From Nesterenkonia sp. PF2B19 (lineage in GTDB: Bacteria > Actinomycetota > Actinomycetes > Actinomycetales > Micrococcaceae): a DNA stretch of 64,000 nt. Under the pieces are notes generated by a model, which ran no database searches, was not told where the DNA came from, and saw only the letters and a list, made by a program, of their open reading frames with translations. Within the stretch, counting starts at the first letter, position 1. Every line of letters begins with the position of its first letter. Location: assembly GCF_001758425.2 (NCBI RefSeq), contig NZ_MDSS02000010.1, forward strand, positions 1 through 64,000, in the 5' to 3' direction. The translations under genes were made by a program, and so were the position numbers. Shown piece after piece: positions 48,770 to 64,000 of the stretch.

Positions 48770-49347
48770 TCAGGCGGCAGAGCCCGTCAGCCAGCTCCGG
48801 GCCTGGTCCACCACAGCGGCCACCGGAGTCGAGATGTCGACCATCCGTCCTGATTCGTCGGGCTGGAGCATCTCCAGCGTGGCGAGCTGGGAGTCCAGCA
48901 GGCTCGCCGGCATGAAGTGTCCAGGCCTCGCCTCCAGACGCTGGGCGAGCAGCTCCCGGCTCCCATGCAGGTGCAGGAACGTCACCTCCGGCGACGCCTC
49001 ACGGATGATCTCCCGGTAGCTGTGCTTCAACGCCGAACAGCCGATCACCAGGCTCCGCCGTCGTCGGCGGCGTCGGCCAGCAGCTCTCCGATCTGTCGAA
49101 GCCAGGGTTCGCGGTCTGCGTCCTCCAGGGGAACCCCCGAACGCATCTTCGCGATGTTGGATTCGGGATGCAGGACGTCGCCGTCGAGGAACCTGCCGTC
49201 GAGCTGCGCGGCGAGCAGCTCCCCCACCGTGGTCTTGCCGCAGCCAGAGACCCCCATGACCACCACACGGTGCGGCCCACCGCTGGAGACGCGCGAGGAG
49301 TCTCCCTGAGGCGGCCGCGCGGGAGTCTGCGGGATGCTCGCGCTCAC
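48770..49347 (-). pseudogene. gntK: Gluconokinase, split by a -1 frameshift
   Basis: A small ATP-dependent sugar-acid kinase (192 residues when restored). The P-loop VVMGVSGCGKTTVGE and GRFLDGDVLHPESNIAKM are gluconokinase signatures. The first frame stops after DGGAW; adding one C at about 49051 gives GGALVIGCSALKHSYREII, the conserved continuation, to the C-terminus WLTGSAA. It ends nine bases from the convergent lacI stop and overlaps manD by four bases. Gluconokinase makes 6-phosphogluconate; in this uronate operon it may instead act on a related acid, since no 2-keto-3-deoxygluconate kinase is present. Sequencing error likely. Confidence 0.88.
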
Positions 49348-50573
49348 CAGTCGTGGACCGTCCCGTCAGCCAGACGGTTGTACGGCAGGTACGCCTGCTG
49401 GTATGGGTGCTTCTCCGCAGCCTCGACGTTGAACTCGACGCCGAGCCCCGGGGCCTGCCCCGGGTGCAGATAGCCGTCGGTGAAGGTCATGGACTGCTCG
49501 AAGACCTCGTTGGTCGCCGGGGAGTGCGGCATGTACTCCTGCAGCCCGTAGTTGTGGATGGCGAGCCCGACGTGCAGCTGGGCGGCGAATCCGATGGGTG
49601 AGATGTCGGTGGGCCCGTGGAAGCCGGACTTGATCTGATACTGCGCCGCGTAGTCCATCACCTTCTTCAACGGCGAGATGCCGCCGAAGTGCGTGGAGGC
49701 GGCCCGCACGTAGTCGATGAGCTGCTCGCTGATCAGTGCCTGGAAGTCCCAGACGGTGTTGAAGATCTCACCGATGGCCAGCGGGGTGGTGGTGTGCTGA
49801 CGGACCAGGCGCAGGGCGTCCTGGTTCTCCGCAGGAGTGCAGTCCTCCAGCCAGAACAGATCGTAGGGCTCCAATGCCTTGCCGAGCTTGGCCGCCTGGA
49901 TGGGGGTCATCCGGTGGTGTCCGTCATGGAGCAGCGGAAGCTCAGGGCCGAACTCGTTGCGGACAGCTTCGAACACTGTGGGCAGGTGGCGCAGGTAGGC
50001 CCGGGTGTCCCAGTCCTCCTCCTGCGGGAAGGCGCCGCGTCCGGCGGGTTCGTAGTCGTAACGCTCCCCGGAGCTCTGCACCTGGGCGGCCACGCCGTAG
50101 ACGGCCTTGAGCCCCGGCACTGCGGTCTGGATGCGGATGGACCGATAGCCCAGCTCCAGGTGCTCCCGGACCGAGTCGAACAGCTCGGGGATGTCGGTCC
50201 CTGAGGCATGGCCGTAGGCGCGCAGCCCTGTCCGTGAGGCGCCGCCGAGCAGCTGGTAGACGGGCATGCCGGCCGCCTTCCCCTTGATGTCCCACAGGGC
50301 CATGTCGACAGCCGCGATCGCCGCCATCGTGACCGGTCCACGGCGCCAGTAGGAGGACCGGTACAGGAACTGCCAGGTGTCCTCGATCCGGTGCGGGTCC
50401 CGGCCGATCAGGAGCTGGGTCACGTGCTCGCGCAGATACGCGGCCACTGCGAGCTCTCGGCCGTTCAGCGTGGCGTCGCCGATCCCGACCAGACCTTCGT
50501 CGGTCTCCACACGGAGCGTGACGAAGTTGCGGGACGGACTGGTGACGAAGACTTCGGCCTTCGTGATCTTCAT
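49344..50573 (-). CDS. manD: D-mannonate dehydratase, ManD/RspA type (enolase superfamily)
   Basis: A 409-residue enzyme converting D-mannonate to 2-keto-3-deoxygluconate. [15 protein letters not shown] is not used by other subgroups; [24 protein letters not shown] and [10 protein letters not shown] give the metal ligands and catalytic His/Asp of the RspA/ManD subgroup. The N-terminus [20 protein letters not shown] is typical. It lies between uxuB and gntK in the uxaC operon, which supports the mannonate assignment over other sugar acids. Confidence 0.92.
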
Positions 50574-50620
50574 ACGATGTCCTCTCAGTGGGGCGGAGCT
50601 GCGCTCCGCCGGGGGTGACT

Positions 50621-52099
50621 TCAGTCGGTGAAGGTGCCGCGCAGTCCCTGGACCGCGGTGACGACCTCGGTCTCCTCAGCCAGCACAGGGTCGATGACGG
50701 CGAGCAGGGCAGAAGTCTGCGCGTCGTCGACGGCCTCAGCGTCGTCGGCCTCAGCGATGACGGCGCGGAGGCGCTCAGCAGCCGAGTCGTGGAGCTCCCG
50801 GCCTGTCTCAAACTGTGCGCAGATCTGGTCCATCCAGGCCGCGATGGCTCGCAGCGCAGCGGTGCCGGGACGTCCGGCCCTCCGTTCGGCCTGGAGGATC
50901 GGCACCGCTCGGGCTGCCAGCTTGAGCGATCCGTCGGCTCCGATCTGAGCCAGATGGTGTGCGATCCTGGGGTTCTCGAACCGGGCGCGCAACGCGGCCC
51001 GGTACTCGGGGATGCCCAGCGCAGGGTCCTGGAGATGGGCTCCGGCGGCGTCCCAGAGCTCCTCGACCCAGTCGGAGACGGCAGAGTCGCCCAGAGCCTC
51101 GGAGACGGTGGAGTGACCACGCAGCTGTCCCGCGTAGGCCATTAGCGAGTGAGCACCGTTGAGCATCCACAGTTTGCGGCGCTCGAAGGGTTCCACGTCC
51201 TCGACGAACACGGCCCCGGCATCTTCCCAGCACGGTCGACCGGCGGGGAACCGGCCGCTGAGCACCCAGGAGGTGAAGGGCTCGGTGACCACTGGAGTCT
51301 GGTCCGTCCGACCCGTGGCGGCCGCGACGGCGGCGCGATCCTCCTCAGCGGTCCGCGGCGTGATGCGGTCGATGGAGGAGTCGACGAACGAGATCTGCTC
51401 TGCGATCCATGCGGCGAGGTCCTCGTCGACCAGCCGCGCCGTCCCCAGGACGGCCGCCCGTGCCGCTGCCCCGTTGCCGGGCAGGTTGTCGCAGGAGACC
51501 ACGGCCAGCGGACCTGAGCCGGCGGCGCGACGCGCCGCCAGCCCCACCACGATGCGCGGGCGCGCGCTGCGGACGCCGTCTCCGGTCAGACCGGCGTCTC
51601 CGAGGGTGAAGGCGCCTCCGGTCCGGTGGGTGCGCAGCGCCGCGACGTCCGCAGCGACGACCTCATCGGCAGTGTCGAGCTGGAGGCCCTCCGGCCCAGG
51701 GGTGAGGTGATATCCGGCCTCGGTGATGGTCAGCGTGATCAGCGCAGTCTCGGCCCGAGAGATCAGACCGCTCAGGGCCTCCACGTCCGCCCCGTCATGA
51801 GCTTCGGCGATGGAGGTCACCACGTCGAACTCATCGCCCAGCGGGCCGCGGGTGACCAATGTGTACAGGCCGTCCTGGGCGGTGAGGTGGTCTGCCGCCG
51901 TCCGGGTGCGTCCGGTGAAGGCGGCGATGCCCCACTCCCCCCGCGGATCCGCCAGTGCCGTGTACCAGGCCTGATGGGCCCGGTGAAAGGCGCCGAGACC
52001 GATGTGCACGATGCGCACGCGCGGAGCTGGTGCCGTCTGGTGATCGGTGCGGTTCAGGAGAGAGAGAGTGTCCCCTGTCGTATTCGATGCGTCGTTCAC
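50621..52099 (-). CDS. uxuB: Mannitol dehydrogenase family: fructuronate reductase (UxuB) or tagaturonate reductase (UxaB)
   Basis: A 492-residue polyol/uronate NAD(H) dehydrogenase. [17 protein letters not shown] begins the Rossmann domain and [17 protein letters not shown] is the K-x4-N-x2-H active-site motif of the family. It reduces D-fructuronate to D-mannonate, the step between UxaC and ManD. Tagaturonate reduction cannot be excluded, but the mannonate dehydratase next door favours UxuB. The ATG at 52099 overlaps the uxaC stop by four bases. Confidence 0.9.
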
Positions 52100-53502
52100 A
52101 GCTTGAAGGCCCTCCTGGGTGAGGTGTCGACCAGCTCGACGATCGCCTGATGAGCACGAGCTTCGGTGATGCGGTGCTCTGCCACCAGTCTGGCCAGGAA
52201 TGAGGCCTCCACCCTGCGTGAGGCGTCATGACGAGCCGGGATCGAGCAGAAGGCACGGGTGTCATCGATGAAGCCCGAGGAGCGGGTGAACCCGGTGGTC
52301 TCGGTGACCGCGGCACGGAAGCGCAGCATCGCGTCCGGTGCGTCAAGGAACCACCACGGGGCACCGACGAACACCGAGGGGTAGAAGCCCGCCAGAGGGG
52401 CGATCTCGCGAGAGTAGACCGACTCATCGATGGTGAAGGGAATGAGATGGAAACCCTCCACGGTGCCGAAGTCCTCAAGCACCGGACGCAGTCCGCTCGA
52501 GTAGTCCACGGCGAAGGGGATGTCATGTCCGGTGTCCGGGCCGAAGCGTTCAAGAGTCGGTGTGTGGGTGTTGCGGTGCACACCAGGATGGACCGTCATG
52601 ACCAGTCCGTCCTCGGCCGACATCTGCGCCATCTGATACATCATGTGCGCTTCGAAGGCGCGGGCCTCCTCCAGCGTGGCCGTGCCGGTCATGCCCTTCT
52701 CAAACAGAGCCTCGGCCTCGGACTTGTCCATCCGCAGAGTGCGTGGGGTGTGGGCCCCGTGGTCGGCGGAGACCGCCCCGTGGTCGATGAAGTACCCGCG
52801 ACGGGCCTGGAGGGCGCGCAGATACCCGGCGTATCCGGAGACTCCGCCTCCGACCGTCTCCACCAGGGCTTCGACGACCTGACGGAACTCGGGACCGAAC
52901 TTCAGGTATCGGTCAGGACGGAACGTCGGCAGGACCCGACCGGTGAAGGTGGGATCCTCAGCCAGCCGACGGTGGGCCTCCAGATCGTCCAGCGGATCGT
53001 CGGTGGTGGCCAGGACTTCGATGCCGAACTGGTCGAACAGCGCCCGCGGCCGAAAGTCCGGTGCTGCGATGCGCTCGGAGATCGCGTCATAGAGCTCGTC
53101 GGCACGGTCCTCGGTGATGGTCGAATCGTCGATGCCGAAGACCCCGGTGAACTCCTGCCGCAGCCAGTACCCGGATGCGGTGCCGTCGAAATCCGCCCAG
53201 TGCGCGCAGAAGATGCGCCACGCCTCCCGCGGGGAGACCTCGGCGCTCCCGCCGACCCGCAGCTGCTCCAGCGGCACGCCGTTGGCGTGGATCAGTCGGG
53301 TGACGTAGTGATCGGGGCTGATCAGCAGCGCTGTGGGGTCCGGAAAGGGAGTGTCGTCGGCCAGCATGGCGGCGTCCACGTGTCCATGCGGGGAGACGAT
53401 CGGCAGGGCCTCCACCTCGGCGTGGAGGTCTCTGGCGATCTCACGCACCCTCGGGTCGGCCGGCAACAGACGATCCGCGTGATCAGCAATCTCAGTCGGC
53501 AT
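52096..53502 (-). CDS. uxaC: Glucuronate isomerase
   Basis: A 468-residue amidohydrolase-fold isomerase converting D-glucuronate to D-fructuronate (and D-galacturonate to D-tagaturonate). SPHGHVDA carries the metal-binding His pair; WLRQEFTGVFGI, VLATTDDPLDDLEAHRRLA and the C-terminal GFIDDTRAFCSIPARHD are family stretches. The ATG at 53502 was chosen because the 24-bp operator (53535-53558) would lie inside the longer frame from 53586. No Shine-Dalgarno is seen, so a leaderless transcript is possible. First gene of uxaC-uxuB-manD-gntK. Confidence 0.95.
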   Translation of the reverse strand: MPTEIADHADRLLPADPRVREIARDLHAEVEALPIVSPHGHVDAAMLADDTPFPDPTALLISPDHYVTRLIHANGVPLEQLRVGGSAEVSPREAWRIFCAHWADFDGTASGYWLRQEFTGVFGIDDSTITEDRADELYDAISERIAAPDFRPRALFDQFGIEVLATTDDPLDDLEAHRRLAEDPTFTGRVLPTFRPDRYLKFGPEFRQVVEALVETVGGGVSGYAGYLRALQARRGYFIDHGAVSADHGAHTPRTLRMDKSEAEALFEKGMTGTATLEEARAFEAHMMYQMAQMSAEDGLVMTVHPGVHRNTHTPTLERFGPDTGHDIPFAVDYSSGLRPVLEDFGTVEGFHLIPFTIDESVYSREIAPLAGFYPSVFVGAPWWFLDAPDAMLRFRAAVTETTGFTRSSGFIDDTRAFCSIPARHDASRRVEASFLARLVAEHRITEARAHQAIVELVDTSPRRAFKL

Positions 53503-53534
53503 GGGCACTATGCTTGGCCCGCGCAGACCCCCCG

Positions 53535-53558
53535 GGCAATCTCTTGCCAGAAGTTGCC
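53535..53558 (-). promoter_or_regulatory. 24-bp composite operator, copy 3 (before uxaC)
   Basis: Read on the minus strand: GGCAACT-TC-TGGCAA-GAGA-TTGCC, matching copies 1 and 2 exactly at every fixed position. It lies 32 bp upstream of the uxaC start and points at it. Confidence 0.75.
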
Positions 53559-53584
53559 ACCATCGGTGGGCGGCCGCGCTCGCC

Positions 53585-53664
53585 ACTGCCGAGCACTCCC
53601 CGTTGCGGCACGCGAACGACCTGGAATCGGTCAGCGCCTCACCGGGGAGGCCGCCTTCCGCTGA
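53585..53664 (+). pseudogene. Remnant of an acyl-CoA dehydrogenase 3' end
   Basis: About 80 bp match the end of the acyl-CoA dehydrogenase gene at 41500-41623 (73 of 80 aligned bases): the part encoding TAEHSPLRHAN-LESV followed directly by QRLTGEAAFR and the stop. Relative to that gene about 45 bp are missing between two TCGGTC direct repeats, and the join is out of frame. It is a decayed copy of a paralogous gene end between uxaC and the amidohydrolase gene. Confidence 0.75.
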
Positions 53665-53677
53665 AGGGCGCCCGAGC

Positions 53678-54952
53678 TCACCCCGCTCTGAAGGCTCGGC
53701 ACAGCGCCGCCACCGCGGCCCGCACGCCCGTCTCCAAGGTGGTCTCCTCCTCCGGGGCGAAGTGCGGCGAATGGTTCATCGGCACGTGCTCCCCTGCCAG
53801 GGTCTGCGCATCATGTCCTCCGAAGTACCAGTACACGCCGGGGACGCCGGCGGAGGCCGGCAGCGTGCCGAAGTCCTCCGAGCCCATGAGCGGCTCGCTC
53901 TCCATCACCTGGTCCGGGCCGAGCTCGGCGCCCAGGGCCTCGACGATCGAAGCCGTCCAGTCGGGGTCGTTGGTGAGCAGCGGGAATGTGTAGAGCTCTT
54001 CGATGACCGGCGCCGGGGCGGCGGACGCCTCCGCCTCGGCCAGGATGACGCGCCGCACCGCGGTGAGGACGCGCCGGCGGGTCTGCTCGTCCAGACTGCG
54101 GATGTTCAGCGTGATCTCCGCCTGCTCCGGGATGATGTTCTCCTTGAGCCCCGCGTGGAAGGTCCCCACCGTCACCACTGCGGAGCGCCGGGCGTCGAGC
54201 TCGCGGGAGACCACCGTCTGGAGTCGCGTGACGATGTGGGCACCCAGGACCACGGGGTCGATCGCATCCTGAGGCTGTGAACCGTGGGACTGGCGCCCGC
54301 GGAGGGTCACTCGCCACGAGTCCGCGAGCGCCATGGCGTTCCCCGTGATGTGCCGGATCTCTCCGGCCGGAATCGGCATGACATGCTGCCCCAGGATGAC
54401 ATCGGGCCGGGGCGCCCGCTCCCAGAGGCCGTCCTCGACCATGGCCCGCGCGCCGGCGGCGGTCTCCTCGCCCGGCTGGAAGAGGACGAGCAGGGTGCCT
54501 GACCATCCGTCCTGCTGGGCGACCAGGTGGCGGACGGCCCCCAGCAGGCACGCGGTGTGGACGTCATGGCCGCACCCGTGCATGACCGGCACCTCGGTCC
54601 CGTCCGGCAGCGTGCCCCGCGCGCCGCTCGCGTAGGGCAGCCCGGTCTCCTCCTCGATCGGGAGCCCGTCGGTGTCCGCACGGAAGGCCACCGTGGGGCC
54701 CTCCCCGTTGCGCAGCACCCCGACGACCCCGGTCCCGCCGCAGCGGAAGGTCTCGAGACCGGCAGCCTCCAGTGCGCGGGTGAGGTACTCGGCGGTGTGA
54801 TGCTCCTGCATCGAGAGCTCGGGGTGGCGGTGCAGGTGCCGGTAGTCCTGTCTCAGTCGCCCCCTGGGCTCGTCGTCGAGGTGGATTCGTCCGGGTGCGT
54901 CGTCGTGACGGGTGCATGCATCGTGGTTCCTCTCCGGTCGGTCACTGGTCAC
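53678..54952 (-). CDS. M20 family amidohydrolase (M20D-like)
   Basis: A 424-residue zinc-dependent amidohydrolase of the hippurate/N-acyl-amino-acid type. HRHPELSMQEHHTAEYL, VMHGCGHDVHTACLLGAV (with the metal-binding Cys/His) and LFQPGEETAAGARAMVEDG (catalytic Glu) are the M20D motifs, and GSEDFGTLPASAGVPGVYW the C-terminal one. It cleaves an amide bond of an N-acylated amino acid or related compound in the cytosol. The ATG at 54952 overlaps the upstream membrane-protein stop by four bases, so its substrate is probably imported by the two membrane proteins. Confidence 0.92.
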   Translation of the reverse strand: MTSDRPERNHDACTRHDDAPGRIHLDDEPRGRLRQDYRHLHRHPELSMQEHHTAEYLTRALEAAGLETFRCGGTGVVGVLRNGEGPTVAFRADTDGLPIEEETGLPYASGARGTLPDGTEVPVMHGCGHDVHTACLLGAVRHLVAQQDGWSGTLLVLFQPGEETAAGARAMVEDGLWERAPRPDVILGQHVMPIPAGEIRHITGNAMALADSWRVTLRGRQSHGSQPQDAIDPVVLGAHIVTRLQTVVSRELDARRSAVVTVGTFHAGLKENIIPEQAEITLNIRSLDEQTRRRVLTAVRRVILAEAEASAAPAPVIEELYTFPLLTNDPDWTASIVEALGAELGPDQVMESEPLMGSEDFGTLPASAGVPGVYWYFGGHDAQTLAGEHVPMNHSPHFAPEEETTLETGVRAAVAALCRAFRAG

Positions 54953-55692
54953 TTCCCCTGGGGCTGCCCGCTCGCTGCGGTCTCAGCGCGGCCCTCCGCT
55001 ACGCGCGGTCGCAGGAACCAGGTCAGCAGGATCGTGGTGAGCACACAGATTCCGGTGGCGACGAATGCCAGGCCGGGCATCAGCGGCACCAGCCCCAGCT
55101 GCACGAGGACCGCGACCGCGAAGGCGATGACCACAGGGCGCAGTCGTCGCACTGTGATGATCGCCTGTACGGCGACGGCGCCGAAGACGGCCGGCACGAC
55201 GTAGGTGCGCACCACCTCGAGCACCGTCTCCGGGGTGATGGACAGCAGCCAGGTGCCCATCAGTCCCACGAAGATCACCAGCGAGACGATGTGCACCACC
55301 GCGGCCCCGCATATCGCCATGGATGCCGCCAGGCTGCCCCGGTCGGTCCCAGGCTGAGCACCCACGTTCTGCTGGGCGACCACAGCTGAGGGGAGGAGCT
55401 TGTTGGAGATGTTGCCGATCATGAAGGCCTGATACATGGCGGCAGGGCCCAGGATCGGGTATTAGGTCACCGGCTCGACGAGCCAGATGATGAAGAACGT
55501 GCCGGCCACGGCCGCGAAGGCCGTCAGCAGGGCTGAGGCGGTGACGCCCAGGTCCGCGAAGAGGACCAGGTAGAGCGGCCCGGAGAGAGAGACCATCAGC
55601 CCGATGATCATGGTGAGGCGGCCAGCACGTGTCGTCGTCGCTGTGAACTGCGCCATCGAGCGCGGGGGATTCCCTAGGGTGGAGGTGCTCAT
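54949..55692 (-). pseudogene. Small membrane protein of the M20 operon, with an in-frame stop
   Basis: A 247-residue protein with about six hydrophobic segments. Reading in one frame from ATG 55692, it is interrupted at codon 77 by TAA (55464-55462) between WLVEPVT and YPILGPAAMYQAFMIGN; a single base change (TAC or TAT to TAA, for example) would explain it, and both sides are protein-like. It may be a sequencing error or a real null allele. Together with the 55708-56466 protein it looks like a two-subunit transporter. No named family is certain. Confidence 0.75.
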
Positions 55693-55707
55693 GGGTGTCC
55701 TTCCGTG

Positions 55708-56466
55708 TCAGCTGATGCCCAGTCCGAGGCCGGCCTGGTCTGCGACATATGCCGCCGCGAGGCCCGACAGGATGGAGAGGCCCAGCCCCCACTCCCGGAT
55801 CCAGGGCAGCGAGAGACGCGACGCCGCATAGGCGGCGAGCCCCATGGAGGCGCCCCCGACGACCAACGCGGTCGTATGCGCCGCGCTGATGCGGACCTCC
55901 GCGATCCCCAGGGAGAGGAACGCTGCGACCAGCGCCGCTCCCGGCACCACGGTCAGCACCAGCGGGTTCAACCGTGCGATCCGCTTCTCACTGCGCTGCA
56001 GGACCGGAGTGAGCAGCAGGGTGGCGAGCATCCACATGGCGCCGCCGGCGCTCATGGCGAAGAAGGCGACGGCGAACGCCGTCTGCGTGTAGCCGGGGCC
56101 GCCCAGCTCAGCCCCGGCGGCACCGGCGGCGATCGACGCTGCGCCGGTCTCATAGGCCACCGAGCCGATGAGACCGATCCTGACCAGGACACCAGGGGTG
56201 CCGAAGAGCGCGAGCAGCGAGAGGGCGACGATCACCACGGCTACGGAGGGGCCCAGTGCCGCGACCGCTCCTGACCGGAAGGAGACCCGTAGGTCGTGCC
56301 GATCCATGCCGACTCCGGGTCCGGCACGCCGGGCGGCCTTCATATAGATGGCGGTCTGGACGATGATGACCAGGAAGACGCCGAGGGCGCTGACCCACAG
56401 CAGCGGCATGTTCGCCACAGCCAGCACATCGGTCGACGTCTCAGGCGAGGCGGCGGGTGATGTCAT
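55708..56466 (-). CDS. Multi-span membrane protein resembling DUF5058
   Basis: A 252-residue protein with about seven hydrophobic segments (LLWVSALGVFLVIIVQTAIY, then AALGPSVAVVIVALSLLALF, and FAVAFFAMSAGGAMWMLATL among them). From memory it resembles the DUF5058 family, found near amidohydrolases; no function is established. The ATG at 56466 has GGAGG ten bases upstream. It is the first gene of the operon and is divergent from the tandem-Lrp regulator. A role in import of the amidohydrolase substrate is inference. Confidence 0.82.
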   Translation of the reverse strand: MTSPAASPETSTDVLAVANMPLLWVSALGVFLVIIVQTAIYMKAARRAGPGVGMDRHDLRVSFRSGAVAALGPSVAVVIVALSLLALFGTPGVLVRIGLIGSVAYETGAASIAAGAAGAELGGPGYTQTAFAVAFFAMSAGGAMWMLATLLLTPVLQRSEKRIARLNPLVLTVVPGAALVAAFLSLGIAEVRISAAHTTALVVGGASMGLAAYAASRLSLPWIREWGLGLSILSGLAAAYVADQAGLGLGIS

Positions 56467-56585
56467 GGACGAGATGCCTCCGTCGTCGAGGGGTGTTCCG
56501 CGGACGACTCCACCTTGACTGTGACGCCCGACACTTTCACCAGATTTCCGAGAAAAATCCAAAGATCCCGTCGGATGATGGACAT

Positions 56586-57584
56586 ATGACCGTTCTTGCT
56601 GAGGAAGACCTGCGATTGATCCATGCACTCCAGGTCTCCCCCCGCGCCTCCTGGACACATCTCGGGACCGTGCTCGCCCGCCATCCCTCGACGCTCGCCG
56701 CACGGTTCGAGAACCTCCGCCGGTCCGGCGCCGCCTGGGTCACGGCACACCCACGAGGCACCCCGGACGAGATGACCCTGACCCTCCACAGCGTCATCTG
56801 CGATCCGGCCTCCCGAAGGTCCGTCACCGCAGCCCTGTGCGCACTCCCCGAGGTCTACTCGGTGGAGGAGTCCCCCAGCGGACGGGACCTGCTGCTCACC
56901 GTGATCGTCCCCCACCCCGGCGACCTGCGAGAACGGGTATTCCCCCTCTTCGACGCCATACCAGGCCTGCTCCGCTGGCAGACGTTCCACTGCACCGCAC
57001 TGCACAGGGGTGCGGACGACTGGGACCTCGGGGCCCTTTCCCCTGACCAGATCCGTCAGCTGAGGGCACGACCCGCCCATCCGCAGACCCCCCGCTCCCT
57101 GCGCTCCTTCGGGCCGATCGTCCGGATCCTCGCCGAGGACGGGAGAGCCTCGTCCCGGACCGTCGCCGCACGGACCGGCCTCGCACCCACCACCGCACGC
57201 CGTCGCCTGCACCAGGTGCTGGCCAGCGGGCGAGTCTCCCTGCGCTGCGACGTCGCCCAGGGACTGCTGGGCTACCCTCTCGTCTGCCAATGGTTCGCGC
57301 GCCTCCCGACGACGCTGCACCCCCGAGCCGCTGCGCTGCTTGCCCAGATGGGAGCCCCGCGGCTGTGCACCTCCACGACAGGCACGACGAACTTCCTGTT
57401 CATGATGTGGCTTCGATCAGCCGCGGAGATCACCGAGATCGAACAGCAGATCGAGGAAGCCCTGCCGAGCCTGCAGCTGGCAGAGAGCGTCGTGCTGACC
57501 CACATCCCCAAGCGCGTCGGCTGGGCCCTCGACGAGCAGGGTCGTGCCGGACAGCTGCTCACCAAGCCGGCGGACTACTGGTGA
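56586..57584 (+). CDS. Tandem Lrp/AsnC family transcriptional regulator
   Basis: A 332-residue regulator in which the Lrp unit appears twice. Residues about 5-60 form a first winged helix (EEDLRLIHALQVSPRASWTH) followed by a RAM-like domain (ALPEVYSVEESPSGRDLLLT). A second winged helix starts at about residue 175 (GPIVRILAEDGRASSRTVAA, TGLAPTTARRRLHQVL), followed by a second RAM domain to residue 332. Normal Lrp proteins have one copy of about 150 residues. The ATG at 56586 is divergent from the DUF5058-like gene, so it probably controls the M20 operon in response to an amino acid. Confidence 0.88.
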   Translation: MTVLAEEDLRLIHALQVSPRASWTHLGTVLARHPSTLAARFENLRRSGAAWVTAHPRGTPDEMTLTLHSVICDPASRRSVTAALCALPEVYSVEESPSGRDLLLTVIVPHPGDLRERVFPLFDAIPGLLRWQTFHCTALHRGADDWDLGALSPDQIRQLRARPAHPQTPRSLRSFGPIVRILAEDGRASSRTVAARTGLAPTTARRRLHQVLASGRVSLRCDVAQGLLGYPLVCQWFARLPTTLHPRAAALLAQMGAPRLCTSTTGTTNFLFMMWLRSAAEITEIEQQIEEALPSLQLAESVVLTHIPKRVGWALDEQGRAGQLLTKPADYW

Positions 57585-57700: not shown

Positions 57701-57771
57701 TTGAATGCAACTCAGCGATTCAGACACCGCGCTCTCCACATATGGGCGCCCGACGACGGCGAGGCACACCG

Positions 57772-59016
57772 ATGACGACCACCACTGACACTGTCTCCGA
57801 CCTGGAGCGCCTGAAGACGCTGCACAACGGCGAGAAGCAGCCGCTGACGTTCTCCGCCGAAGAGTTCGAGCGCCGCCTGTCGGGCCTTCGGCGCATCATG
57901 AGCGAACAGGGCCTCGACGCCGCGATCCTGACCAGCTACCACGGCATCAAGTACTACTCCGACTTCCTCTACACCACCTTCGGCCGCAACTACGCACTGG
58001 TCGTCACGCAGGACGATTCAGTCACCGTCACCGCCAACATCGATGCCGGCATGCCGTGGCGGACCAGCCACGCCGACAACATCGTCTACACCGACTGGAA
58101 ACGTGACAACTTCTACTACGGCCTGCAGCAGGCCGTGGCCCGCGCCGGCGTCCCCGCCTCACGAATCGGCGTCGAGGACGACTCCCTGCCGGTGATGACA
58201 CGACGCAGCATCCAGGACGCCTTCCCGGATGCCGAGCTCCTCGACGTCTCGCAGGCCGCCATGCGCCAGAGGATGATCAAGTCGGACGAGGAGATCGAGG
58301 TCATCCGACATGGCGCCCGCATTGCGGATCTCGGAGGTGAGGCGATCAAGGCCGCCATCCGCGAGGGCATCATGGAATATGAGGTCGCCCTCATCGGCAC
58401 CGAGGCGATGACCCACGAGATCGCCAGAACCTTCCCCCACCGCGAAGTGCGGGACACCTGGGTCTGGTTCCAGTCCGGCATCAACACCGACGGCGCCCAC
58501 AACTGGGCGACCACCCGCCGGCTGCAGCACGGCGACATCCTGTCGCTGAACTGCTTCCCCATGACCTCGGGCTACTACACCGCTCTGGAGCGCACACTGT
58601 TCCTCGGCGAGCCGGACGAGACGAGCCTGCACCTGTGGAACGTCAACGTCGAGGTGCATCGGCGCGGCCTCGAGCTGATCAGGCCCGGGGCGGTCTGCAA
58701 GGACATTGCGGCAGAGCTCAACGAGATCTACGTGAGCCACGGACTCCTCCCCCGGCGCACCTTCGGATACGGCCACTCGTTCGGGGTGCTCTCCCACTAC
58801 TACGGCCGCGAGGCCGGCCTGGAGCTGCGCGAGGACATCGACACCGTCCTCGAACCAGGCATGGTGGTCTCCATGGAGCCCATGATCACGATCCCCGAGG
58901 GCGAGCCCGGCGCGGGAGGATACCGCGAACACGATATCCTCGTCGTCCAGGAGGACGGAGCTGAGAACATCACCGGATTCGGCTTCGGACCGGAGCACAA
59001 CATCATCCTCGCCTGA
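57772..59016 (+). CDS. Creatinase (creatine amidinohydrolase)
   Basis: A 414-residue pita-bread enzyme that hydrolyses creatine to sarcosine and urea. SGINTDGAHNWATT contains His243, at the place of the catalytic His of Pseudomonas creatinase; FGYGHSFGVLSHYYGREAG, MVVSMEPMITIPEGEPGAGG and ENITGFGFGPEHNII match creatinases closely as recalled, not metal-dependent M24 peptidases. The ATG at 57772 is preferred over 57742 since homology starts there. The nearby sarcosine oxidase and purU genes and the IclR and transporter genes support the assignment. Confidence 0.93.
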   Translation: MTTTTDTVSDLERLKTLHNGEKQPLTFSAEEFERRLSGLRRIMSEQGLDAAILTSYHGIKYYSDFLYTTFGRNYALVVTQDDSVTVTANIDAGMPWRTSHADNIVYTDWKRDNFYYGLQQAVARAGVPASRIGVEDDSLPVMTRRSIQDAFPDAELLDVSQAAMRQRMIKSDEEIEVIRHGARIADLGGEAIKAAIREGIMEYEVALIGTEAMTHEIARTFPHREVRDTWVWFQSGINTDGAHNWATTRRLQHGDILSLNCFPMTSGYYTALERTLFLGEPDETSLHLWNVNVEVHRRGLELIRPGAVCKDIAAELNEIYVSHGLLPRRTFGYGHSFGVLSHYYGREAGLELREDIDTVLEPGMVVSMEPMITIPEGEPGAGGYREHDILVVQEDGAENITGFGFGPEHNIILA

Positions 59017-59029
59017 GGCTCCTCATCGC

Positions 59030-59065
59030 ACGGTGGGGTCGACGCCGGAGCGTCGGCCCCACCGT
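59030..59065 (+). terminator. Hairpin terminator after the creatinase gene
   Basis: ACGGTGGGGTCGACGC (59030-59045) pairs with GCGTCGGCCCCACCGT (59050-59065) around CGGA, a 16-bp stem with one G-U pair. It lies 13 bp after the stop and before the IclR gene. Confidence 0.8.
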
Positions 59066-59096
59066 GGCCACGGGCTGGAGAACAGGAGCCCCCGAC

Positions 59097-59885
59097 ATGG
59101 CAGACCGCGAGACCAGGCGACAGCCGGGCCGTGAGCCCTCGGTGATCGTCAACGTCATCGAGGTGCTCCGCTGCTTCACCGTCGACGAGCCGCAGCAGAG
59201 CGTCACCGGGATCTCCTCCCAGGTCGGCCTCCACAAGTCGACCGTCTCGCGCATCCTGGCCACGCTCGAGGATGAGCGCATCGTGGAGCGCGACGAACCC
59301 TCCCGCCGCTACCAGCTCGGCCTGGGCCTGATCGCCGTCGCCGGACCGCTGCTGGCCAATCTGGACGTGCGTCGCGTCTCCCTCGACGAGCTCCAGGATC
59401 TCGCTGCGGAGACCGCCGAGACCGCGGCGCTGACCATCTGGGACGGCGAATCCTCTGTGACGGTTGAGCAGGTGGCGAGCCGGCTTCAGGTCAAACACAC
59501 CTCCGAGCTGGGCAGCCGATACTCGACCGGCCTGAGCGCCAGCGTGCAGGTGCTCCTCGCCCATCGCCCTCCGGGAGAGGCCCAGCGCCTCCTGGACACC
59601 GGGAGGGTGACGATCCCGCCGTCCCTGTCCACGGAGCAGCACCTCGACCTGCTCGCCCAGGTCCGCCGCCAGGGCTTCGCGGTCAACCACGCCCAGACGT
59701 CCGCCGATGAGGCCGGAGTCGCCGCCCCCGTGCGGGACCACCGCGGGGAGGTCGTCGCCGCCATGATGATCGCAGCCCCCGCCTTCCGCGTCCCAGAGAC
59801 GCGCATCCCGGAGCTGGTGCAGCTGTGTCGCCACTCTGCCGACCGGGTCAGTCGGCGCCTGGGCGCCGCACCCCAGCCCTCCTGA
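59097..59885 (+). CDS. IclR family transcriptional regulator
   Basis: A 262-residue regulator. Residues about 15-75 form the winged helix (VTGISSQVGLHKSTVSRILA), followed by the IclR effector domain (ELGSRYSTGLSASVQVLLAH, GEVVAAMMIAAPAFR). The ATG at 59097 follows AGGAG. It lies between the creatinase gene and the MHS transporter, both of which have a CGCAAC-N3-GTTGCG-type inverted repeat in front of them, so it is the likely repressor of creatine use. The inducer may be creatine or a breakdown product. Confidence 0.93.
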   Translation: MADRETRRQPGREPSVIVNVIEVLRCFTVDEPQQSVTGISSQVGLHKSTVSRILATLEDERIVERDEPSRRYQLGLGLIAVAGPLLANLDVRRVSLDELQDLAAETAETAALTIWDGESSVTVEQVASRLQVKHTSELGSRYSTGLSASVQVLLAHRPPGEAQRLLDTGRVTIPPSLSTEQHLDLLAQVRRQGFAVNHAQTSADEAGVAAPVRDHRGEVVAAMMIAAPAFRVPETRIPELVQLCRHSADRVSRRLGAAPQPS

Positions 59886-59983
59886 CCGCGACACCCCTTC
59901 GGCACACCTCCTGCTGCGATCCGCGCCCCGGTTCGGCGCGGCATGCCCGCACGCGCCCCCCCCCACTGAACTGTGCCGAACCG

Positions 59984-60030
59984 TTGACGACATGTGACAC
60001 CGCTCATACTCTTAACGCAACCGAGTTGCG
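59984..60030 (+). promoter_or_regulatory. MHS transporter promoter region with IclR-type operator
   Basis: TTGACG (59984-59989) is followed after 15-17 bp by CATACT/TACTCT, and CGCAAC-CGA-GTTGCG (60016-60030), a perfect 6-3-6 inverted repeat, follows directly. The layout copies that of the creatinase promoter. Confidence 0.65.
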
Positions 60031-60060
60031 TTCATCGCAACCTTTGAGCGGAGGTATCGC

Positions 60061-61434
60061 ATGTCCCCTCAGCCCGACTCCCCTATCCGGCACACCCAGC
60101 CACCGGCTCTCGACCGAACCGACACCCACCAGACCACCCCAACACCGAACACGGCGGGACTGACTCCCGTCGACCCGCTCACTCGACGCAAAGTGGTCGC
60201 CGCCACCTTCATCGGCAACTTCGTCGAATGGTTCGACTACGCCGTCTACGGCTACCTCGCCGGAAGCATCGCCATCGCGTTCTTTCCGGAGAGCGATCCG
60301 ACGACTCAGCTGCTGGGCGCGTGGGCCGTCTTCGCCGTCTCGTTCCTGGTCCGACCCCTCGGCGGGTTCTTCTGGGGGTGGCTCGGGGACCGTTGGGGCC
60401 GCAAGACGGCCCTGTCCTGGTCGATCCTGGTCATGTCGGTCGCAACCTTCTGCATCGGACTTCTCCCCACCTACCCGACAGCCGGAATCCTCGCACCGCT
60501 GATGCTCCTGCTGGTCCGTGTGGTGCAAGGGTTCTCTGCTGCCGGGGAATACGCCGGCGCCTCGGCCTTCCTCGTCGAGTACGCACCCAAGGGCCAGCGA
60601 GGCAGATACGCGGCCGTCGTGCCGGCCTCGACGTCGGCCGGCCTGCTCTTCGGCCTGCTCTTCGTCACCGGGCTCACCGCGGCTCTCGGATCGGACGCGG
60701 TGAATGAGTGGGCGTGGCGCATCCCGTTCCTCCTGGCCGCACCCCTGGGACTGATCGGCCATTACATCCGCACCCGGCTGGAGGACACCCCGCAGTTCAC
60801 GGCGCTCCAGCAGCAGGATGACGTCATCACGGCGCCCTGGCGCGACCTCTTCGTCCAGCACTGGCGCCTGCTGCTGCGTGCCCTGGGTGCCGCGCTGCTC
60901 AATGCGGTCGCCTTCTACATCCTGCTCAGCTACATGCCCAACTATCTGGAGTCCCAGCTTGACCTCTCAGTGACCCAGGCCAACACTATGACGGCGACCT
61001 CACTTGTCACCTATATCGGGTTCATCCTCATCACCGGATCGCTCTCAGACCGAGTAGGCCGGCGCAAAGTGCTGCTCTCGGCGTCCGTGGCCATGTTCGT
61101 ACTGGCCGTACCGGCCTTCATGCTGCTGAAGCACGGATTCCTCCTCGGCGTGCTGGTCCTCGTCATCATGGGCGGAACGCTCGCACTGAACGACGGCGTC
61201 CTGCCGAGCTTCCTCTCCGAACAGTTCCCCACACGGATCCGCTACACCGGCTTCGCAGTCTCGTTCAACTCGGCCAACGCCTTCTTCGGCGGCACCGCCG
61301 CATTCGTGGCCACGCTGCTGATCTCCGTGACCGGATCCGCGCTGGCCCCTGGCTGGATGCTGATGGCTGCAGCGTCGATCGCCTTCGTGGCGGTCCTGCT
61401 CTCCCGGGAGACGGCGCAGGAGGAGCTGCGCTGA
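60061..61434 (+). CDS. MHS family MFS transporter (putative creatine/metabolite:H+ symporter)
   Basis: A 457-residue, 12-span transporter. GNFVEWFDYAVYGYLAGSIA is the MHS hallmark of span 1, FWGWLGDRWGRKTALSWS motif A and VVQGFSAAGEYAGASAFLVE the span 4-5 region. MHS members carry betaine, proline, citrate or similar compounds. The Thr/Pro-rich N-terminus (about 40 residues) is hydrophilic. The shared operator with creatinase makes creatine, or a related guanidino or betaine compound, the best guess for the substrate. Confidence 0.9.
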   Translation: MSPQPDSPIRHTQPPALDRTDTHQTTPTPNTAGLTPVDPLTRRKVVAATFIGNFVEWFDYAVYGYLAGSIAIAFFPESDPTTQLLGAWAVFAVSFLVRPLGGFFWGWLGDRWGRKTALSWSILVMSVATFCIGLLPTYPTAGILAPLMLLLVRVVQGFSAAGEYAGASAFLVEYAPKGQRGRYAAVVPASTSAGLLFGLLFVTGLTAALGSDAVNEWAWRIPFLLAAPLGLIGHYIRTRLEDTPQFTALQQQDDVITAPWRDLFVQHWRLLLRALGAALLNAVAFYILLSYMPNYLESQLDLSVTQANTMTATSLVTYIGFILITGSLSDRVGRRKVLLSASVAMFVLAVPAFMLLKHGFLLGVLVLVIMGGTLALNDGVLPSFLSEQFPTRIRYTGFAVSFNSANAFFGGTAAFVATLLISVTGSALAPGWMLMAAASIAFVAVLLSRETAQEELR

Positions 61435-61804
61435 ACGGCAGGGAGGCGCGCACGACGGGCGTGAGCCTCGTTCTGACGGCGCTGTGCGGGAGTCACGTCT
61501 GCCCGGACGGCACAGGCGTGCTGGGACAGCGTGGTGTGACCGGGAAACCGGAGCTCCAGAGCCGGATCGGGCCGGACTCGGAGCAGAGACGGGAGTGTTC
61601 AGTTCTCACCCGTCGTCGACGATCTGCGCCTCATGGGCGTGTCAGCGTCTGCGCAGAGCAGCTCGTCGATGACCTTCGGCGACAGCACGTGGATCAGGGC
61701 CCGGGGAGGCTGCGGGACAGCAGCGGTCGGCCGCCTGGGCCCACCACCACTCTCTGAGGGCCCGGTGACCGCGATGCGTCGCGGCGCACGATCGTCCTGC
61801 GCCC
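61435..61804. other. 370-bp intergenic region, no clear gene
   Basis: The stretch separates the convergent MHS transporter and purU genes. A minus-strand frame (61599-61808, ending DELLCADADTP-type sequence) is too short and unconserved-looking to call. A TCGTCCTGCG/CGCAGGACGA hairpin (61792-61818) overlaps the purU stop and may terminate that operon. Confidence 0.4.
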
Positions 61805-62707
61805 TCACCGCAGGACGACCGTGCGCATCCCGTTGAGGAAGACCCGCCCCTCACAGTGCCACCGGACGGCGTTGGACAACGCCTTCGACTCGGTGTCTCG
61901 TCCGGCGGCGACCAGATCCTGCGGCATATAGGTGTGATCGACATCGACCACCTGCTGGGCGATGATCGGACCTTCGTCCAGCTCCTCGTTGACATAGTGG
62001 GCGGTCGCGCCCACGGTCTTCACTCCCCGGTCGAAGGCCTGGTGATACGGTCGGGCGCCTTTGAAGGAGGGCAGGAAAGAGTGATGGATGTTGATCGCCT
62101 TCCCCGAGAGCGTCCTCGTGAGATCATCCGAGAGGATCTGCATGTACCGCGCCAAGACGACCAGCTCCACGTCGAACCGGCCTACCAGGTCCAGCAGCTC
62201 CTGCTCGGCGGCCTGCTTCGTCTCGGGGGTGACCGGCACGTGGAAGTACGGGATCCCATGCCACTCCACGAGCTGTCGATGATCCTCGTGGTTCGACACC
62301 ACGGCGGCGATCTCGATCGGCAGCTCACCCGCCCGCGACCGGTTGAGCAGGTCGTTGAGGCAGTGGCTGAATCGGGACACCATGATCAGCACGCGCCGCG
62401 GCTCCCCGTGGCGGAAGAGCTCCCACCGGGCGTCCAGCTCGTCGGCCAGCTCGGCGAGCTCCTCGCGCATCCCCGCGCCGCCGACCTCGGCGCCCCCAGG
62501 TCCGCTCAGCCTGACCTGGACGCGGAGGAAGAATCGGCCGGTGTGCTGGTCGTCGAACTGCCTGAGCTCCACGATGTCGCCCCCATGCCGCAGCAGCACC
62601 CCGCTCACAGCATGGACCAGGCCCGGTCTGTCCGGACAGTCCATGCTGAGCACATGGTCCTGCGACTGGTCTGCCGATCCACGGTCAGGCCCGATCATGA
62701 CTGCCAT
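61805..62707 (-). CDS. purU: Formyltetrahydrofolate deformylase
   Basis: A 300-residue enzyme that hydrolyses 10-formyl-THF to THF and formate. An ACT-like domain (DRPGLVHAVSGVLLRHGGDI) precedes the formyltransferase fold with INIHHSFLPSFKGARPYHQA (catalytic His) and YVNEELDEGPIIAQQVVDVD (catalytic Asp). The ATG at 62707 has AGGAGG six bases upstream. It is the last gene after soxA and soxG, an order seen in other sarcosine operons, where it removes the one-carbon units formed by sarcosine oxidation. Confidence 0.94.
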   Translation of the reverse strand: MAVMIGPDRGSADQSQDHVLSMDCPDRPGLVHAVSGVLLRHGGDIVELRQFDDQHTGRFFLRVQVRLSGPGGAEVGGAGMREELAELADELDARWELFRHGEPRRVLIMVSRFSHCLNDLLNRSRAGELPIEIAAVVSNHEDHRQLVEWHGIPYFHVPVTPETKQAAEQELLDLVGRFDVELVVLARYMQILSDDLTRTLSGKAINIHHSFLPSFKGARPYHQAFDRGVKTVGATAHYVNEELDEGPIIAQQVVDVDHTYMPQDLVAAGRDTESKALSNAVRWHCEGRVFLNGMRTVVLR

Positions 62708-62881
62708 GACATCCTCCTGAAGTGATGGTGGAGGCCGACCTGCACTGACGTCGGCCATGAGACCCCCTGTTGAGGTCCGTCGGTTCTTCGATCCTCCGCC
62801 CGCGTCCGTCGAGCGCGTCCGCCAGGGACGCACACCGGACCCTCGCACACAGCAGAGGGTCCGATGCGCGTCATCCCAACG

Positions 62882-63567
62882 TCAGAGGAATCCCGGTGCC
62901 CCCGGGAGCTCCGGCTGGGCGAACTCCGCCATGCGTCGATCAGCCACCGGACGGTGTAGTCCGCGAAGGAGGCCCGCGGCAGGATCCGCCACGTGGTCTC
63001 CGCGCTGCGCACCAGGACCACCGGGACGGTCCCGAGCAGCGTGGAGACCCCGCTCCCGACCGGGAACGCCCTCGGATGGAGATCCACCGCGCAGCCCTTC
63101 TCCAGGACCGCACGTGCCTCGACGCCGGCCAGTTCGAGCACCGCACGGTTGGCGGAGAGGTCGAGCAGCTGGCCCGGCAGTCCCTCCAGGCAGCCGGCCA
63201 GCTCCTCAGCTTCGCCGGGGAGCTGCTCCCGGGAGACGTCGATGACGAGGAACTCATCCGGGCCGAGCCAGACCGCGTGCAGGCCGTTCAGATCGCCGCT
63301 GGTGCCCCGGTGATGCTGAGGGAGCGTCAGCCCGACACGCTGCTCGACCGCCTGTGCGGACGGCGTGCCGGGCCTCACCCGCACCCCCAGTTGCACCGGG
63401 AAGGCGATCTCGCGGAGCCGCACCTCCCGCCGGCCCGAGACTCCGGCATCGTGCATGGCCTCCTCGAGGTGGGCCACCGGTGAACGTCGCCGCGGGCCCT
63501 GCGGACCTCCCTGATGCGGACCGGTCCGCGCCGTCTCTGCTGTCATCGTCACGGTGTGGTCACCCAT
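62882..63567 (-). pseudogene. soxG: Sarcosine oxidase gamma subunit, frameshifted at the C-terminus
   Basis: The small subunit of heterotetrameric sarcosine oxidase, with a GcvT-like fold. LREIAFPVQLGVRVRPGTPS and WLGPDEFLVIDV and LLDLSANRAVLELAG are characteristic. After FADYTVRWLIDA the frame is off: adding one base at about 62933 gives MAEFAQPELPGAPGFL and a stop at 62882 (228 residues); as written the frame continues through purU. The ATG at 63567 overlaps the soxA stop by eight bases. Sequencing error likely. Confidence 0.88.
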
Positions 63568-64000
63568 CGCGCCGGCTCCCTTCGGGGTCGTAGAGGACAT
63601 GTGAGGTGATCTCGACGTCGACCACGCGGTCCCGCACCGGGACCTGCGCGATCTCGCCGATGAGATTCCTGCCGTCATCCACCAGGGCCAGCCCGAAGGG
63701 ACGGCCCAGAGCGGCCGAGAGGTAGGAGGAGGTCACGTGACCGATCATCGGCACAGGACCCTGATCAGGCGTGATCGACGTTCCGCGGGCGACGAGCTGT
63801 GCGCCTTCCTCGAGGCGGGTGGCGCCGTCGACAGGCAGCACCCCCACGAGCTGCCGACGGTCGGAACGGGCTGTGTCAGGCCGCGAGAGTGACCGTTTGC
63901 CCACGAAGTCCTTGACCTTGGAGACCGCCCAACCCATTCCCGCATCATCCGGGGTGACGGTGCCGTCGGTGTCCTGTCCGACGATGATCAGGCCCTTCTC
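63560..64000 (-). CDS. soxA: Sarcosine oxidase alpha subunit, C-terminal part
   Basis: The last 146 residues of the large subunit, cut by the right edge. [19 protein letters not shown] and [20 protein letters not shown], then [20 protein letters not shown], belong to the C-terminal GcvT-like domain that takes the one-carbon unit to THF. The complex oxidises sarcosine to glycine with transfer to 5,10-methylene-THF. It is coupled to soxG by an overlap; soxB and soxD are expected upstream outside the window. It completes the path from creatine. Confidence 0.93.

Follow-up and report, generated by a model that had tools for sequence, protein, structure and literature searches.

A DUF5058 membrane protein, its constant partner and an M20D amidohydrolase in Nesterenkonia: a possible uptake system for glycine amides

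The stretch of DNA analyzed here (the window) comprises 64,000 nucleotides (nt), positions 1 to 64,000 of contig NZ_MDSS02000010.1 of Nesterenkonia sp. PF2B19 (GCF_001758425.2). It carries an operon transcribed from the minus strand in the order DUF5058, MEM2, M20D amidohydrolase, where MEM2 denotes a second membrane protein; an Lrp-type gene is divergent from it (Table 1). The operon was compared with its relatives and is considered below as a possible system for the uptake of glycine amides.

Gene content and interruption of the operon

The M20D amidohydrolase, the DUF5058-like protein and the divergent Lrp-type gene named in the original prediction were all recovered, with Pfam and TIGR01891 matches over their cut-offs. 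The DUF5058 product matched PF16481 over the whole profile (1–222 of 222; 193.1 bits against a cut-off of 28.2). The amidohydrolase matched TIGR01891 in NCBIfam (268 bits; cut-off 153.75) and, in Pfam, Peptidase_M20 (PF01546, 108.7 bits; cut-off 24.6) and M20_dimer (PF07687, also over its cut-off). No signal peptide was apparent in this protein. Its sequence contains MHGCGHD, QPGEE and NHSPHF, presumably the metal-site motif set of M20D enzymes, and its best solved relative is 6slf, an N-alpha-acyl-glutamine aminoacylase (316 bits, residues 30–416).

The regulator had been described as a double Lrp protein. HTH_AsnC (PF13404) was matched in two stretches (49.8 bits; cut-off 27), while comparison of the two halves by BLASTP revealed no similarity (best E 3.0). 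The term double therefore applies to the helix–turn–helix (HTH) only. No Pfam match to the RAM domain (AsnC_trans_reg) was obtained at E ≤ 0.001, a search that a degenerate domain could escape. Relatives of this protein with 43–53% identity are divergent from DUF5058 in ten loci.

Table 1. Features of the operon and of the adjoining region of the window (aa, amino acids).
Feature	Position	Strand	Evidence
M20D amidohydrolase, 424 aa from GTG 54952	53678..54952	-	Pfam PF01546/PF07687 and TIGR01891 above cut-off
MEM2, second membrane gene, about 247 codons, broken by in-frame TAA	54949..55692	-	Translation, alignment, profile match
DUF5058 membrane protein, 252 aa	55708..56466	-	PF16481
Divergent intergenic region, 119 bp, between DUF5058 and Lrp-type gene	56467..56585	.	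Coordinates
Lrp/AsnC-type regulator, 332 aa, two AsnC HTH stretches	56586..57584	+	PF13404
Creatinase (creatine amidinohydrolase)	57769..59016	+	phmmer to 1chm_A, 567.5 bits
IclR-type regulator	59064..59885	+	Pfam IclR_C and HTH_IclR above cut-off
MFS transporter, nearest TIGR00883/ProP, below their cut-offs	60061..61434	+	Pfam, NCBIfam
purU, formyltetrahydrofolate deformylase (one-carbon metabolism)	61805..62848	-	TIGR00655, 326.3 bits (cut-off 285.95)
soxG-like sarcosine oxidase gamma subunit	62695..63678	-	TIGR01375, 137.2 bits, just under cut-off 143.95

The second membrane gene had been taken to encode a small intact protein. Instead, its frame of about 247 codons extends to codon 248 and is interrupted by TAA at codon 77, giving pieces of 76 and 162 aa on translation. 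All 79 aligned relatives have tyrosine at the codon-77 column, which lies inside a highly conserved MEM2 motif around EPxTY[FY]P[IV]LG...MYQAF. The 162-aa reading as an intact gene was ruled out by the stop and by this alignment. In a profile search of the whole genome the locus was read as a single MEM2 gene across "1 TAA" (E = 5.9e-108).

The predicted overlap of the MEM2 stop with the start of the M20 gene (54952/54949) holds only if GTG 54952 is that start. This GTG looks poorly led. Doubt comes from ATG 54921, which was judged by eye to have a better ribosome-binding site and lies in a different frame, closed by a stop after 22 codons; the M20 gene may thus contain a small frameshift near its 5′ end. 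Frameshifts also split soxB and a third glyA copy elsewhere on this contig; two other glyA copies are whole. The region is either decaying or poorly assembled, mutation and assembly error being inseparable from the sequence. A second DUF5058–MEM2–M20 set, on contig C56, has no stop within the matched stretches.

Recoding of a recurrent in-frame stop in MEM2 was also considered, since the profile search showed stops in other genomes, and was rejected. When MEM2 of genomes G349, G314 and G366 was translated, the stops fell at the C-terminal end, apart from one close to the N-terminus in G349. The three therefore revealed no internal stop in common; G317, G386, G342 and G406 were outside the check.

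Pairing of DUF5058 with MEM2 and M20 genes

The neighborhood survey of both membrane families with M20 genes, as suggested with the original prediction, covered 111 loci: 80 named loci, 22 from further genomes and nine plasmid stretches. These are not independent and include duplicate places (for example, L080 and L120, L042 and L136, L108 and L135). The loci were chosen for having DUF5058, and bias-free tests of pairing were provided only by searches of 149 genomes of the window's family and of 296 genomes drawn from the phylum.

Of the 149 family genomes, 48 were found to have DUF5058, and an independent search for MEM2 returned the same 48, the window's genome included. Copy numbers of the two genes differed in G398 and G399 only, with a split gene. 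Both genes occurred in three of the 296 phylum genomes, one of them the window's own; a fourth showed a sub-cut-off DUF5058 match only. Within the family of genome G257, DUF5058 exceeded its cut-off in 5 of 249 genomes. At the loci themselves, MEM2 was the next gene after DUF5058 in 79 of the 80 named and was present in 110 of the 111. DUF5058 and MEM2 are thus a strict pair. Homology between the two proteins was considered and none was seen (hhalign probability 1%).

The function of the pair was originally thought to be undescribed. The literature search found no paper containing "DUF5058", and MEM2 has no Pfam family: no match at E ≤ 10 was obtained for the MEM2 sequences P0002 and L038, and those of L065, L095 and L106 gave sub-cut-off matches only. 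Neither membrane protein was placed by profile in a known transporter family, an outcome that would have spoken against the prediction. By estimate and in the predicted models, both are hydrophobic and multi-span, and the models contain no sizeable soluble domain. The models were of moderate quality (pLDDT 71.2 and 73.5, pTM 0.52 and 0.49 for the two proteins). Fold searches with them gave best Foldseek E values of 0.57 and 1.5 and VIA-align Z scores of at most 5.0 and 4.8. Searches for solved relatives by sequence gave two chance-level matches for MEM2 (E 1.4 and 1.5) and none at E ≤ 10 for DUF5058.

The absence of a transporter family by profile, or of any matched fold, would also suit a membrane enzyme or sensor that works with the hydrolase and transports nothing. 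Such a role was considered very improbable, as the two multi-span proteins show no soluble domain of notable size in the models and are steadily linked to a hydrolase that has no apparent signal peptide and so depends on the entry of its substrate.

An M20 gene lies downstream in 72 of the 80 named loci, and since the operon order recurs in these it is not a product of chance. Of the eight named loci without M20, three end early or at a contig end (L045, L078, L081). Where 3.5 kb or more of downstream sequence was available (105 loci), M20 was present between −3 and +4.5 kb of DUF5058 in 96, haloarchaea included; the pair does not, therefore, occur mostly apart from amidohydrolases, as it might have done had the prediction been wrong.

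Twelve plasmid records with DUF5058 relatives were found and nine were inspected. In all five haloarchaeal plasmid records inspected (six listed), the annotated order was DUF5058, hypothetical protein, M20 hydrolase or amidohydrolase. On the Paracoccus pantotrophus plasmid the amidohydrolase comes first, followed by DUF5058 and a hypothetical protein, and on the Arthrobacter plasmid the copy lies in a region without annotation. The plasmid hypothetical proteins were identified as MEM2 relatives, by hmmsearch in L142–L146 and by tblastn in the rest. Two plasmid copies, those of Paenarthrobacter and Vibrio, are broken. In the former (L142, Paenarthrobacter ureafaciens plasmid pADNL2), a degenerate copy, MEM2 is split over several frames (7324–8178). 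In the latter (L146, 5977–7441, Vibrio diabolicus plasmid), far from the Actinomycetota, transposase genes flank a whole MEM2 and a DUF5058 frame that is interrupted. A further record, WNZI01000006.1 (L068, 8001–10755), titled Vibrio cholerae strain 35D, holds an Arthrobacter-like DUF5058–MEM2–M20 operon that groups with Arthrobacter rows of the tree; the record looks mislabeled or contaminated.

Glycine riboswitches and glycine genes near the operon

In genome G257, Rfam identified a glycine riboswitch (RF00504) directly upstream of DUF5058. Across 67 loci of 53 genomes (sub-cut-off DUF5058 matches in G046 and G597 left out), RF00504 preceded the DUF5058 domain by 188–238 nt, in the same orientation, in at least nine, the weakest aptamer matches being outside this count. 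The expected number was 0.012, from a Poisson calculation that ignores ancestry. Five of the nine loci come from one genus (g219), with one each from g214, g200, g1 (the window's genus) and g7 (another family).

A covariance model, R1, was based on seven aptamers, one of which (L120) is identical in place to L080. It found a glycine aptamer at the same place in 11 of the 80 named loci, one of them weak (L061); the positive loci belong to Paeniglutamicibacter and its relatives, a Nesterenkonia and two Rhodococcus records, including R. jostii. With Rfam at the gathering score, a riboswitch at DUF5058 was present in six of 16 other sources, two of the six being the same place. The Rfam-positive relatives were L033–L036, L120, L121 and L132. 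At L080 (2991–10419), a Nesterenkonia, the riboswitch-led operon adjoins a LamB/YcsF (5-oxoprolinase-type) gene. A weak aptamer match (33.7 bits, own model) was also seen on the Paenarthrobacter plasmid, at 6393–6482 on the minus strand, opposite to DUF5058.

Six leaders were inspected, and each has two aptamers followed by the gene start. No U-run terminator was evident in these six, the sole T5 run (L047) lying inside the second aptamer, and the on/off mode is therefore not settled. At the DUF5058 gene of G257 the first aptamer is stronger than the second (70.5 versus 53.5 bits), as it is at the glycine-cleavage (gcv) genes of that genome (60.8 versus 44.6 bits). According to the portion of Crum et al. 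2019 available (PMC6944388), a better kept first aptamer is associated with cleavage genes, a setting that is in turn associated with on-switches. The stronger first aptamer hints at an on-switch and hence at glycine being used or exported, not simply taken up. The same portion of that source assigns 74% of the glycine riboswitches of Actinobacteria to cleavage genes and 22% to other glycine metabolism.

Other glycine genes adjoin the operon in relatives. Gly_transporter (PF03458), usually one gene per genome, lay within 3 kb of DUF5058 in seven of the 53 genomes, from four genera (G302, G399, G332, G326, G411, G342 and G330; positions compared by eye), with 0.14 expected within 3.5 kb by the same kind of calculation. 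Three haloarchaeal records have a TRIC-annotated gene next to the operon, PF03458 being confirmed in one. Genes gcvP, gcvT and gcvH were found within 9 kb of DUF5058 in L046, L055, L110 and G257, and glycine-cleavage genes adjoin DUF5058 in some Rhodococcus, Arthrobacter and haloarchaea. For the haloarchaea, the annotation places gcv genes next to the operon in three of the five records, and a fourth has lpdA and lipA there; in Halalkalicoccus none of these is annotated at the operon. Single gcvT-like matches at 6–8 kb (L071, L106, L124, L129) were not counted as glycine links.

The best analog of the window is L161, whose M20 and Lrp proteins are 67% and 49% identical to those of the window. 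Its order is Gly_transporter, divergent Lrp, DUF5058–MEM2–M20, glycine riboswitch, then gcvP and gcvH (gcv genes named by appearance).

On a tree of 106 rows, the riboswitch state changed five times and the presence of any glycine link 11 times. The tree was made by a quick method and has long branches, the window's row among them; L078 was left out for its missing MEM2. The labels (riboswitch, Gly_transporter, gcv) were set by hand from the earlier results, with L161 lacking its gcv label. The glycine link seems widespread in the family and is perhaps old; other clades may handle other amides.

The glycine riboswitches and Gly_transporter neighbors could also arise if DUF5058 and MEM2 were a safety valve that moved glycine itself (or sarcosine), in either direction, with M20 supplying glycine from peptides. 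The occurrence of the pair without M20 in nine of the 105 loci would suit this, and an on-switch of the type suggested by the G257 aptamers and the available part of Crum et al. 2019 would suit an exporter. Nevertheless, M20 is the steadiest third partner from the Micrococcaceae to the haloarchaea, and a glycine mover would be redundant in the several genomes where Gly_transporter already adjoins; this explanation was judged unlikely.

The window operon stands next to genes that lead to glycine. Creatinine is converted via creatine and sarcosine to glycine, and the island beside the operon encodes this route. It spans 57769–63678 of the window and the following stretch (L159, C11:64001–82000), where a BCCT transporter is also found. 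The creatinase gene adjoins the Lrp-type gene; its product matches 1chm_A over residues 17–413 of 415, and no NCBIfam model scored over its cut-off for it. Beyond the window lie a soxA-like frame (by appearance), soxD, the split soxB, the split glyA, a creatininase gene (TIGR04448, 309 bits; cut-off 235) and Gly_transporter (C11:73099–73569, Pfam); soxD, soxB, the serine hydroxymethyltransferase (SHMT) and creatininase were identified by NCBIfam. Sarcosine oxidase, glyA, creatininase and Gly_transporter are 6–17 kb from the operon. Ectoine degradation (DoeA/DoeB) was considered for both window genes and rejected, as NCBIfam scores were far under cut-off and the M24 gene is the creatinase. Directly downstream of the M20 gene are hexuronate catabolism genes (49344–53586), by appearance uxaC, a fructuronate-reductase-type dehydrogenase and an enolase-superfamily dehydratase.

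Proposed function and known systems

The original prediction had proposed uptake and hydrolysis of an N-acyl or amide-linked amino acid. The strict pairing, the frequency of M20 nearby and the N-acyl-amino-acid enzyme 6slf as best solved relative favor it; the indirect case for transport, the broken MEM2 of the window and the amidases of many relatives (below) weaken it. Because of the glycine riboswitches, the glycine-cleavage genes, Gly_transporter and the creatine/sarcosine island, the amide is here narrowed to glycine compounds. The chances are put at about even that DUF5058 and MEM2 are two obligate subunits of a transporter that imports a glycine amide, which the M20D enzyme then cuts.

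In the proposed scheme, the two proteins would form a two-subunit membrane transporter that belongs to an undescribed family. The imported compound would be a small amide with glycine as its amino part, either an N-acylglycine, for instance a conjugate of the hippurate type, or a small glycine peptide. The M20D enzyme encoded in the same transcript, assumed to be cytosolic, would cleave the amide bond to release free glycine, which might enter the glycine cleavage system or be moved by Gly_transporter. Expression would be controlled by a glycine riboswitch in one set of relatives and by the divergent Lrp-type regulator in operons of the window type. The complex, its transport activity, the direction and the exact substrate are inferred, and a role of the M20D protein as an N-acylglycine (hippurate-type) hydrolase is suggested by context and homology. 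The wider proposal, that the pair represents a new class of two-subunit secondary transporter for glycine conjugates in Actinomycetota, Proteobacteria and haloarchaea, an unrecognized glycine riboswitch target and a means of N-acylglycine scavenging that feeds one-carbon metabolism, is tentative and falls somewhat short of an even chance.

Several observations weigh against glycine-amide import. The glycine label is carried by only 28 of the 106 tree rows. Rfam found no glycine riboswitch at 20 further family loci (L008–L027) and no match of any kind at the gathering threshold in the whole window, where R1 also gave none; none was seen in the C56 region examined (L118). As no riboswitch was found in the window, the Lrp-type gene is the likely regulator of the operon there. 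As read, MEM2 is interrupted, so the window copy may not work. The aptamer pattern of an on-switch would be unusual for an importer of glycine itself, and the structure models (pLDDT 71 and 73) are moderate and matched no solved fold. M20 is missing in the nine loci mentioned, and five of these, representing four places, have an amidase. The nearest solved M20 enzyme acts on N-acyl-glutamine, not glycine. Lastly, an amidase lies within 5 kb in 53 of the 111 loci, which form separate clades on the tree; not every member, therefore, need handle glycine compounds.

The last two points would also be expected of a general importer of N-acyl or amide compounds whose substrate varies by clade, with glycine only a regulatory signal in some. 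Other clades indeed have a second M20 (carbamoylase-like by appearance), CoA-transferase, carboxyltransferase or LamB/YcsF genes as neighbors. However, glycine links recur in distant branches, as counted by the 11 changes on the tree, and in archaea, and a sensed amino acid is normally the substrate or product, so that this broader role was held to be improbable. L060, L064, L066, L088, L090 and L096 have, within some 6 kb of DUF5058, genes for an amidase, a carboxyltransferase and a CoA-transferase of the CaiB type; these clades perhaps use another acyl amide.

The import of glycine amides thus provides a functional hypothesis for DUF5058 and for a partner without Pfam family, and the riboswitch makes it directly testable. 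If true, a transporter-plus-hydrolase module would join the glycine riboswitch regulons and would reveal a way in which microbes of soils and salt lakes may channel glycine conjugates into one-carbon metabolism.

Among known systems, the enzyme of 6slf, which we take to be AgaA, resembles the M20D protein of the window in hydrolyzing an N-acyl amino acid (the molecule name is that of the entry). It differs in its substrate, N-acyl-glutamine rather than the proposed glycine amide. AbgT with AbgA/AbgB combines a transporter with M20 hydrolases for an aroyl amino acid. AbgT is large and has its own Pfam family, which neither DUF5058 nor MEM2 matched in Pfam scans. Gly_transporter (TRIC), the neighbor of DUF5058 in some genomes, is a single gene of another Pfam family.

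AGCS symporters are transport genes found under glycine riboswitches, according to the parts of PMC11477304 and PMC6944388 available. The DUF5058 loci share with them a membrane transport gene, putative here, under a glycine riboswitch; unlike AGCS, DUF5058 and MEM2 are two dissimilar proteins that occur with an amidohydrolase and match no other Pfam family over cut-off. The available part of PMC11477304 also describes a lysine riboswitch in C. difficile over yfcC (a YfcC-type antiporter) and an M20D amidohydrolase. The logic is the same, an amino-acid riboswitch with a membrane protein and an M20D hydrolase, but the amino acid is another and the membrane protein is single and named. PMC3766115 names three glycine transporter orthologs, and no amidohydrolase appears in the portion of its main text available. 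A search for glycine riboswitches with hippurate, amidohydrolase or M20 found nothing on such a module in the text available, survey supplementary tables being outside the search and another name possible. A transporter plus amidohydrolase under amino-acid control is thus a known kind of system; the DUF5058–MEM2 pair and its glycine link appear to be new.

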